Of a stretch of 63,557 nt of DNA, positions 1-53,442 are shown piece by piece. The number at the start of each line of letters is the position of its first letter. The first letter of the stretch is position 1. Location of the stretch: NCBI GenBank assembly GCA_002069885.1, contig MWCD01000016.1:1-63557 (forward strand), read 5' to 3'. The notes beneath the pieces were generated by a model that ran no database searches, had not been told where the DNA came from, and was given only the letters and a program-made list of their open reading frames with translations. A program made the translations under genes and the position numbers. This stretch comes from a bacterium ADurb.Bin236. Its GTDB lineage: Bacteria > UBP15 > UBA6099.

Positions 1-670
1 CGGCGGCCTTAAGGTCGTCGATGATGTAGTTGAGCCTGCGCTCCTGTATGCCCAGATTCGCGCGAACGTCGGATACTATGTCGATTGCGGACTGAACGGC
101 GGTGATAGCAGCTTGGGCGTTTGCCAAAGTCGTCAAATCGTCGCCAAGTCCGAGTCCCGCAGCGGATGAAAGCGACTGAATAGTCACAGTCAACTGGTAA
201 GTCCCGGCGTTGTCCGCGCCGATCTGAAGAACCTGCCCGGCGGCGTAATCGCCGTTGAAAAGATTCTTCGTGTTGAAAGTGACCGCGTCGGCTTTCCTAT
301 CTATCTCTGCGACCAAGCTCTGAAACTCGTCGTCGAGCCTAGTCATGTCCGCAGAAGTCAGAGTCGCTTCATTGGCTGCGCGGACGGCCAAGTCCCGCAT
401 CCTTAGAAGTATCTCGTGCGTCGCGGCGAGTGAACCGTCTGCGGTGCGGATCAAGTTGATCCCGTCTTCCGCGTTCTGCACTGCGGTCCTGATCCCGCCT
501 ATCTGAGCTTCCATCCCCTTGGCGATGGCCAATCCGCTCGGATCGTCCGCCGCCCAGTTGATTCTCAATCCGGATGACAGTCTCGCAAGCGATGTTTGTA
601 ATCCCAGATTCGTAAGTCTGAGATTGTTCATCCCGATTAATGAACTGATATTGGTGTTGATAACTGTCAT
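1..670 (-). CDS. Flagellin, 3' end cut by window edge
   Basis: Main filament protein of the flagellum, secreted and polymerised outside the cell. About 223 codons are visible, from the ATG at 668-670 to the window edge, with no stop. The start has a GGAGG ribosome site just upstream (in the forward text, cctcc near 680). The N-terminus MTVINTNISS, the conserved SSGLRIN stretch and the AEDGINLI region are typical of the flagellin D0/D1 helices. The usual INxAxDD motif reads RINWAADD here, with an unusual Trp. It is very close in sequence to the flagellin at 1245-2072, so the pair is a tandem duplication. The sequence passes directly from N-terminal to C-terminal conserved blocks, so no large variable D2/D3 domain is present. 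The last C-terminal helix lies outside the window. Confidence 0.93.
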   Translation of the reverse strand, partial: MTVINTNISSLIGMNNLRLTNLGLQTSLARLSSGLRINWAADDPSGLAIAKGMEAQIGGIRTAVQNAEDGINLIRTADGSLAATHEILLRMRDLAVRAANEATLTSADMTRLDDEFQSLVAEIDRKADAVTFNTKNLFNGDYAAGQVLQIGADNAGTYQLTVTIQSLSSAAGLGLGDDLTTLANAQAAITAVQSAIDIVSDVRANLGIQERRLNYIIDDLKAA

Positions 671-51682: not shown

Positions 51683-52534
51683 CTAGTTGCTTTCGTCTTT
51701 TTTCAACTCAAACAAGAACGGTTCCACATATTCAAGCCAATCGCTAAAAGTTCTGGGCATTGACGTCGAATACTCATATCCGAGCCTGCCTTCCGTAGGC
51801 GGTTTAAGATAGTCGTATGCAGGAGCCGCGCGGTATGGCTCTTCCTTCAACATCTTTCCGGTCATTATCGTCCTAAGCGGCGACACGATGGAGGCTTGGC
51901 TTTCGTACGCGTCCAGCATCGAAGTTTTCGCCTGCGCCATTTTTTTGTCGAGGCGAACTGTCATGGTTTCGGTGTCGTCCCGAGGAAGAAGCTTTGCGTA
52001 TCTGTAACTGCCTCTGAGCGTGTTATATAGAGGAAACTCATAATGAGGCGGGTTGCCCCCGACTTCTTTAACGATTATAGAAGCAATTAGCGAGGTCAAA
52101 TCATGATCGATGTGGCCTCCCTCATAAGCGATTGATGTTATTTCAACGGGAGACAATGTCCTTGCGACTTTTAAAACGTCTTCAAAAGCTTCCTTCACAT
52201 GTTTGTAGCTCAAAGCGTCCGGATAACCTAAGAAAATGAGATTCTCCTGTTTCACTCCCAGCAGTCTCATAGCTTCCCGCGACTCCTTCTCCCTTGTCTC
52301 GGCGGGAACATGCAAAGCTCCGTCCGTTATCCAGACGACATTCACATTTTTCCCATCCCGGATGTCGGACATGATTTTACCCGCGCATCCAAGTTCGTCA
52401 TCCTGATGAGCGAGAATATACAGAACGTTTGCGTTTTCGGAGGCTGTCGCTAACATGCCCGACGCCGCCAATATTACAGATGCCGTTAACAACACAAGCG
52501 ACGCTTTGCACATAAATCCTATTGTTTTTTCCAT
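51683..52534 (-). CDS. Exported PIG-L (LmbE-like) N-acetylglucosaminyl deacetylase
   Basis: Zinc deacetylase of 283 residues. The signal peptide ends near residue 33 (GMLATASE). The metal motif is AHQDDELGC, where most relatives have AHPDDE, and the second zinc ligand is in GGHIDHDLTS. The start at 52532-52534 is chosen because TTTGGAG lies 9 bases upstream; an upstream ATG at 52561 has no ribosome site. Family members deacetylate GlcNAc-lipids or similar. It is followed by the GT-C-like gene, so both may act on an envelope glycolipid. Confidence 0.9.
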   Translation of the reverse strand: MEKTIGFMCKASLVLLTASVILAASGMLATASENANVLYILAHQDDELGCAGKIMSDIRDGKNVNVVWITDGALHVPAETREKESREAMRLLGVKQENLIFLGYPDALSYKHVKEAFEDVLKVARTLSPVEITSIAYEGGHIDHDLTSLIASIIVKEVGGNPPHYEFPLYNTLRGSYRYAKLLPRDDTETMTVRLDKKMAQAKTSMLDAYESQASIVSPLRTIMTGKMLKEEPYRAAPAYDYLKPPTEGRLGYEYSTSMPRTFSDWLEYVEPFLFELKKDESN

Positions 52535-52662
52535 GTATGCCACTCCAAAGCAGTTTGCCATGATATGTATAATAATTGCTTATCTCTCTTGAGTCTATGT
52601 TTCGGTGATTCAGATCACATGCGGATTGGCTTGTTTTTGTGTTTGAAACGCCGGTAGCGTGG

Positions 52663-52668
52663 TATAAT
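52663..52668 (+). promoter_or_regulatory. Perfect -10 box of a candidate small RNA
   Basis: TATAAT exactly matches the sigma-70 -10 consensus. The best -35 is TTGAAA 14 bases upstream (5 of 6 but short spacing), or TGTTTG at 17 bases (weak). No coding gene follows on this strand, so the box probably serves the short transcript ending at 52737. Confidence 0.55.
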
Positions 52669-52674
52669 ATAAAC

Positions 52675-52737
52675 GAAGGGAATGGACCTTCTCATAACCT
52701 CCTTGGAAAACTCCCTCGTCAGAGGGAGTATTTTTTT
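52675..52737 (+). ncRNA. Candidate small RNA with anti-Shine-Dalgarno segment
   Basis: A short transcription unit of about 63 nt in a 332-base gap between minus-strand genes. It has a perfect -10 box at 52663-52668, a 5' hairpin (GAAGG 52675-52679 with CCTTC 52687-52691), an unpaired CCTCCTT (52698-52704) and a 3' terminator hairpin with seven Ts. The CCTCCTT is exactly the anti-Shine-Dalgarno of 16S rRNA, so the RNA could pair with ribosome sites of many mRNAs; AAGGAGG occurs before the symporter ATG in this window. This is a prediction from sequence only. No protein of useful length is encoded here. Confidence 0.55.
52710..52737 (+). terminator. Strong intrinsic terminator of the small RNA
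   Basis: An 8-base perfect stem, ACTCCCTC (52710-52717) with GAGGGAGT (52722-52729), and a 4-base loop (GTCA) are followed by A and seven Ts (52731-52737). On the minus strand the same stem is followed by only four Ts, so plus-strand termination is favoured, though it could serve both. Confidence 0.8.
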
Positions 52738-52801
52738 GAGTTTTTTCGAAAACAAACAAAAAACTGTGGAAGCGCTAAAAGCCCGATAGAAAAGAATTTT
52801 C

Positions 52802-52830
52802 AACCCGAATTCTAATAATGGATTCGGGTT
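52802..52830 (-). terminator. Hairpin downstream of the CheX-like gene
   Basis: AACCCGAAT (52802-52810) pairs perfectly with ATTCGGGTT (52822-52830) around an 11-base loop. It lies 64 bases beyond the stop of the CheX-like gene (minus strand). The following minus-strand sequence has only a broken T-run, so termination here is plausible rather than certain. Confidence 0.4.
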
Positions 52831-52893
52831 CAATCAAAAAAACAGTAAATATGCCTAAAAAGAAGAATTATTATTGGGAAAAAAGGTGTTCTC

Positions 52894-53442
52894 TCAATTT
52901 ACTTGCGCGATTTTCGAAGGGTCTGTCTTAATAACATTGAAGTAAACTTTAAACTCGCCGTGATCAGTTTCCAGAGGGACGACTAAAAACTGCCTGTCTT
53001 TAGAGAATTCAATCGGTTTCTGAACGCTTATCTGGGAGAAAACATTGGCCAGATAACCCTTTTTGACCAGTTGACCTCGCGCCAACTCGGAAATCCGGAG
53101 TGAAAACTCCCTGAGACAATTTTTTGCCATTTCATCTAATTCAAAAACCGGCAGACCGAACAGAAAAATGGAGATTAGTTTTTTTGCCACAATCTCGGGA
53201 AGCTGCAGAACAACAAGGCCTTTTATTGCTCCATCCACTCTTAAATAGACAAGAGCGTCGCCGTTGATTTTGTCTGATTTTACAAGGCTTAAACAACCCT
53301 TGCGCGCTGAAGTATGCCCCATCGATTGTAAAGTCTGATGAAGGGCGGCAAGGAACGGATTCACAAAGTCAGCCTCGACCTCGCGCAACCTGTCCGCAAT
53401 TTCATCAAAAGAGCAAGCTCCCACATTAAAATTATAACGCAC
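52894..53442 (-). CDS. CheX-like chemotaxis phosphatase-domain protein
   Basis: Protein of 182 residues. The stretch FVNPFLAALHQTLQSMG resembles the N-terminal helix of CheX, and the following GDALVYLRVDG with KGLVVLQLPEIVAKKLISIF fits the CheC/CheX/FliY fold. The phosphatase motif (E-x-x-N) is not clearly conserved (ELDEMAKNCLREF), so it may be a non-catalytic relative. CheX dephosphorylates CheY in chemotaxis; the flagellin genes in this window make that context plausible. It stands alone at the edge of the small-RNA gap. Confidence 0.65.
   Translation of the reverse strand: MRYNFNVGACSFDEIADRLREVEADFVNPFLAALHQTLQSMGHTSARKGCLSLVKSDKINGDALVYLRVDGAIKGLVVLQLPEIVAKKLISIFLFGLPVFELDEMAKNCLREFSLRISELARGQLVKKGYLANVFSQISVQKPIEFSKDRQFLVVPLETDHGEFKVYFNVIKTDPSKIAQVN

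Follow-up and report, generated by a model that had tools for sequence, protein, structure and literature searches.

Layout of the intergenic unit

The window, that is, the whole 63,557-nucleotide stretch of contig MWCD01000016.1 analyzed here, contains, as claimed in an earlier note on this DNA, a compact plus-strand unit between two minus-strand genes; these are a PIG-L-like deacetylase gene and a CheX/CheC-like gene. The promoter, the anti-Shine-Dalgarno (SD) word and the terminator described in that note are all borne out in the sequence at the positions given there (Table 1). The spacing of the -35 element, which had been singled out as the weak point of the unit, is now less of a concern: the TGG that precedes TATAAT makes an extended -10, and a TTT(G/A)AA element separated by a 15-nt spacer is conserved. 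The predicted start is a purine located at an equal distance from the -10 in all three families of the phylum in which the unit was found (see below).

Table 1 Features of the unit and its flanks in contig MWCD01000016.1
Feature	Position	Strand	Remarks
PIG-L-like deacetylase gene	51683-52561	minus	flanks the unit
-35-like element TTTGAA	52642-52647	+	15-nt spacer to the -10; TTT(G/A)AA equally distant in G000, G001, G005 and G006
Extended -10, TGG-TATAAT	52660-52668 (TATAAT 52663-52668)	+	GGTATAATA kept in G005, GGTAAATAA in G006
Predicted sRNA, ~63 nt, start G at 52675	52675-52737	+	R1 matches in 4 genomes of 3 families
5′ hairpin GAAGG-GAATGGA-CCTTC	52675-52691	+	not conserved in G006
Conserved block GGAAYGGACC-TT-YTCATAACCTCCTTGGAAAAC	52679-52711	+	alignment across three families
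CCTCCTT	52698-52704	+	identical to the 16S anti-SD core of the source genome; 16S tail ATCACCTCCTTTCT
Intrinsic terminator, 8-bp stem, GTCA loop, seven Ts	52710-52737	+	ACTCCCTC-GTCA-GAGGGAGT at 52710-52729, followed by an A and a run of seven Ts up to 52737; the stem persists in G005 and, in a shifted register with altered pairs, in G006
CheX/CheC-like gene	52894-53442	minus	flanks the unit

Two further elements were noticed in the flanks. A perfect palindrome, GTGAT-TCAG-ATCAC (52605-52618), resembling sites of the CRP/FNR family, is located in the stretch that separates the sRNA promoter from the divergent PIG-L-like gene, with its center at about -63 from the predicted sRNA start. As a candidate activator site of the sRNA it was rejected: it is kept in the close relative G001, in which the whole locus is 96% identical to that of the source genome (G000), but is absent upstream of the copies in G005 and G006, and therefore may serve the PIG-L-like gene instead. 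Just past the end of the CheX-like gene, an inverted repeat, AACCCGAATTC...GATTCGGGTT (52802-52832), which is not conserved in G001, is a possible terminator of that gene.

Several features of the unit were compared with chance expectation. The predicted fold has a z-score of -2.4, mostly owed to the terminator, and 4 of 200 shuffled sequences folded equally well. Among the 25 strong terminators with perfect stems in 1.26 Mb of the source genome (60 stretches of G000 plus the window), that of the unit is the only one with an exact TATAAT within 75 nt upstream; the window having been picked for the unit, this count indicates rarity and cannot be read as a p-value. The chance of CCTCCTT falling within the 18-nt linker is approximately 6-7e-4. 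The decisive evidence for the reality of the putative unit, in our assessment of the sequences, is its conservation.

Conservation in the candidate phylum

A search of seven genomes of the phylum (four genera, three families) with R1, a sequence-only model of the 77-nt unit (52661-52737, plus strand), yielded one strong copy each in G000, G001, G005 and G006, with scores of 78-88 bits and E values of 1e-24 to 1.6e-21. These four of the seven genomes represent all three families and include each of the three phylum genomes that are at least 90% complete, in addition to G006 (78% complete); R1 did not find the RNA in G002, G003 and G004 (88, 67 and 80% complete). A contig break was considered as the reason for the absence from G002: the CheX ortholog of that genome is located 197 nt from a contig end, but the sequence there is unlike that of G000 and holds no terminator remnant. 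No R1 match with an E value of 5e-4 or better was obtained in any other of the 386 genomes searched, and nothing comparable to the unit was detected among the 379 genomes outside the phylum. The single copy per genome rules out a dispersed repeat. Blastn of positions 52600-52760 against 60 genomes gave matches of 88% (E 3e-20) in a second family and 85% (E 3e-13) in a third, both alignments being confined to the segment from roughly the -10, or slightly past it, through the terminator. When 84,980 species genomes were scanned for the exact pattern, three true copies from the same clade were recovered (JAKQPS010000005, JAJRTR010000055 and JAGUYV010000218); the seven other matches (in Clostridia, Desulfofundulus, Prochlorococcus, Azonexus and Methanocellales) lack the flanking block and the terminator and resemble chance occurrences in coding DNA, and there was no match among viral contigs.

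The conserved stretch, GGAAYGGACC-UU-YUCAUAACCUCCUUGGAAAAC, comprises approximately 33 nt and thus extends far beyond CCUCCUU. In the alignment of the three families, the block GGAAYGGACC-TT-(T)YTCATAACCTCCTTGGAAAAC is invariant except for one Y, one C/T and one indel, and TTT(G/A)AA, the 15-nt spacer and the -10 are kept alongside it. The sequence on either side of CCTCCTT is no less strictly conserved than CCTCCTT itself, which argues for particular targets or for contact with a protein or chaperone.

The gene neighborhoods of the three loci are unrelated between the families: the neighbors are the PIG-L-like and CheX-like genes in G000 and G001, a zinc-finger-like protein and a Xaa-Pro peptidase in G005, and Gfo-Idh-like and TIM-barrel proteins in G006, with the CheX homologs of G005 and G006 encoded on contigs other than that of the sRNA. 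This bears on the extremely improbable and disfavored explanation that the unit is a cis element, either a 5′ leader or attenuator or a mere bidirectional terminator behind the CheX-like gene. In favor of this explanation, the unit is closed by a terminator and sits past the end of a convergent gene; however, its neighbors change from family to family, G000 and G006 have no plus-strand gene behind it, its conservation extends to the promoter, and the block that is conserved is different from the stem. The families keep no common reading frame on either strand. Two candidates for a hidden peptide were discarded: the plus-strand ATG at 52682 becomes ACG in G006 and its frame is shifted in G005, and the frame that opens at the minus-strand ATG beneath the complement of AAGGAGG ends after 7 codons in G005. 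Given its own promoter and terminator, its single copy and the lack of both a fixed neighbor and an ORF, the unit looks like a free-standing gene for a trans-acting sRNA; autonomous signals combined with no conserved ORF and no fixed neighbor are also what characterizes the trans-acting anti-SD sRNAs. We consider it very likely that the unit is a real, expressed sRNA gene.

The two stems fared differently when compensatory changes, named in the earlier note as a sign of support, were examined. The terminator passes loosely, with GAGGGAGT and a longer loop in G005 and with CCCTCCC/GGGAGGG in a shifted register, with changed pairs, in G006. The 5′ hairpin, present in the source genome as described, fails and is not conserved: in G005 five pairs are kept, the outermost G-C being replaced by A-U, and the hairpin is not the minimum-energy fold, its bases favoring a different pairing that occupies part of the anti-SD, and in G006 it is broken. 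Likewise, the CCTCCTT described as free is predicted to be 75% unpaired in G000 but only 44% in G005 and 36% in G006.

The fate of the 5′ hairpin is also relevant to the very improbable alternative that the RNA has a protein as its partner instead of pairing with mRNA, for example, CsrA, which would bind the conserved AYGGA of the 5′ loop. The core of CsrA sites is A-N-GGA, and the AUGGA/ACGGA of the RNA fits this core and varies at the N position only; furthermore, CsrA is encoded in all seven phylum genomes. However, a sponge would be expected to have more than one site, G006 lacks an intact hairpin to present the site, and this alternative leaves the invariant UCAUAACCUCCUUGGAAAAC unexplained.

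Complementarity to ribosome-binding sites and predicted targets

The 3′ end of the 16S rRNA of the source genome reads GGATCACCTCCTTTCT, so the identity of CCTCCTT with the 16S anti-SD holds against the genome's own 16S tail; the tail and the RNA share ACCTCCTT, or ATNACCTCCTT if one mismatch is counted. The mean predicted pairing energy of the 15-nt linker was -8.7 kcal/mol at the starts of 855 genes versus -6.4 in their interiors (p 6e-54), and values below -14 kcal/mol were obtained for 39 of the 855 starts versus 5 of the 855 interiors. The true 16S tail prefers gene starts in like manner, and the 5′ part of the RNA alone displays no such preference (p 0.31). The preference predicted for the linker supports binding to ribosome sites and, together with CCTCCTT and the 16S tail, indicates that the conserved stretch is complementary to the organism's own SD, as in anti-SD sRNAs. 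The pairing of the core with gene starts was no better than that of flank-shuffled controls.

The idea that the RNA masks ribosome sites genome-wide, put forward in the earlier note, is very unlikely because AAGGAGG occurs at only ~2% of the sampled gene starts, namely upstream of 26 of the 1332 genes called in 1.66 Mb of G000 and 10 of the 482 called in 0.6 Mb of G005, percentages that are approximate given the simple longest-ORF gene calls with SD-guided starts. Across G000, CCTCCTT itself is scarce (358 occurrences versus 778 for the reversed sequence), which would fit an avoidance of strong SD words.

The RNA probably acts mainly by base-pairing with the SD regions of a subset of mRNAs. 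A trans-acting sRNA of approximately 63 nt would be transcribed from a sigma-70-type promoter of its own, with transcription stopping at the intrinsic terminator of the unit. Through its conserved linker, YUCAUAACCUCCUUGGAAAAC, a putative mimic of the 3′ end of 16S rRNA, it would pair with the SD region of a limited number of mRNAs and, in the best cases, with their start codon as well; loading of the 30S subunit at the covered ribosome site would be prevented, and translation would fall. Hfq might assist through the U-tail; it is encoded in four of the seven phylum genomes examined, which makes such help possible, and was not found in G000, G003 and G006, possibly owing to assembly gaps. The confidence that we express in the reality of the gene, in this mode of action and in the dismissal of genome-wide masking is a judgment, not a computed quantity.

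In 1.66 Mb of G000, the top-scoring predicted target (-31.3 kcal/mol) is a polyprenyl glycosylphosphotransferase-like (sugar-transferase-like) gene located inside a glycosyltransferase cluster (G000:C5, L129, 2979 onward). Its start, CAAGGAG-N8-ATGAGAAGGTC, fits the RNA over 7 + 11 bp (CAAGGAG plus AUGAGAAGGUC), the pairing spanning the SD and codons 1-4, and a near-identical gene start is present in G001. Such a fit could mean that the RNA mainly controls a single mRNA or a small number of specific mRNAs, with CUCCUUG on the SD and GACCUUYUCAU on the start codon and codons 2-4, and that CCUCCUU simply reflects the good SD of the target. The resemblance of the reverse complement of the RNA to a gene start and the equal energy (-31.3 kcal/mol) obtained for a TonB-receptor-like gene start in G006 point in the same direction. 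We nevertheless consider this explanation unlikely: the G005 ortholog of the sugar transferase reaches only -16.8 kcal/mol, so that the pairing is not kept; two shuffled controls attain -32 to -33, similar to the minima of the best targets; and the 5′ part, as noted, has no preference of its own for gene starts. Nor did a conserved target emerge from the comparison of G000 and G005, in which the predicted pairing energies of 120 ortholog pairs are uncorrelated (rho 0.05). In view of the unconserved G005 pairing, the uncorrelated energies and the similar shuffled controls, no target counts as established.

Quite unlikely, too, is an "anti-start-site" reading, under which the RNA would pair at once with the SD (through CCUCCUUG), the start codon (CAU) and the first codons (GGACCUUYU) and leave the spacer as a loop; if this reading were true, the regulon would be set by gene-start sequence, not 5′-UTR sequence, and the sRNA family would be private to one candidate phylum. 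As a separate observation, the start of a periplasmic-protein-like gene in G004, TTTCCAAGGAGGTTATATG (G004:C305, L023, ~540-590, minus strand), is almost fully complementary to the linker (-26.9 kcal/mol); this excellent complement thus sits in a genome in which the sRNA was not found.

Relationship to known sRNA families

No Rfam family reached its cut-off in a scan of the unit, and Yfr1 was not listed up to E = 10. The best sub-threshold match was RF02270, nse_sRNA (Neisseria sigma-E), with 22.5 bits versus a gathering score of 75 and an E value of 0.057 that holds for only the 201 bases searched. In both RNAs CUCCUUGG precedes a terminator, a likeness that is most likely due to convergence or chance.

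The cyanobacterial Yfr1, the motif of which is ACUCCUCACAC, is likewise short, kept across a phylum and marked by a conserved, pyrimidine-rich motif that is complementary to the SD; in Yfr1 this motif lies between 5′ and 3′ stem-loops. However, its motif differs from the CCUCCUU of the present RNA, in which, moreover, neither the 5′ stem nor the gene neighborhood is conserved; the Yfr1-like single-stranded motif between two stems applies to the source genome, and in the G005 and G006 models the motif is mostly paired. Another cyanobacterial sRNA, Yfr10, has its motif in common with Yfr1 and lacks conserved synteny (PMC6778093), but carries the motif in a loop atop a stem, whereas that of the present RNA is in a linker.

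By its seed, the present RNA is closest to alpha-r14/NfeR1. In that family, anti-SD seeds silence mRNAs by covering the ribosome site, as in the case of NfeR1, which silences ntrB through CCUCCUCCC seeds that cover the ntrB start; the alpha-r14 RNAs have three hairpins in common, with CCUCCUCCC in each, and the founder NfeR1 is 123 nt long (PMC10746234). This hallmark is missing from the present RNA, in which we found a single CCUCCUU in approximately 63 nt, no CCUCCUCCC and two stems. Because its motif differs from that of Yfr1 and the three CCUCCUCCC hairpins are missing, it belongs to neither family. The best reading of the combined analyses is a new sRNA family that would work like Yfr1 or alpha-r14 and repress a subset of mRNAs.

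The unit would thus represent a previously undescribed sRNA family without an Rfam match in an uncultured phylum represented here by seven genomes, and it supplies a covariance seed and a short, testable list of targets for this uncultured lineage. A further origin of Yfr1/alpha-r14-type anti-SD sRNAs, in an unrelated group, is probable.
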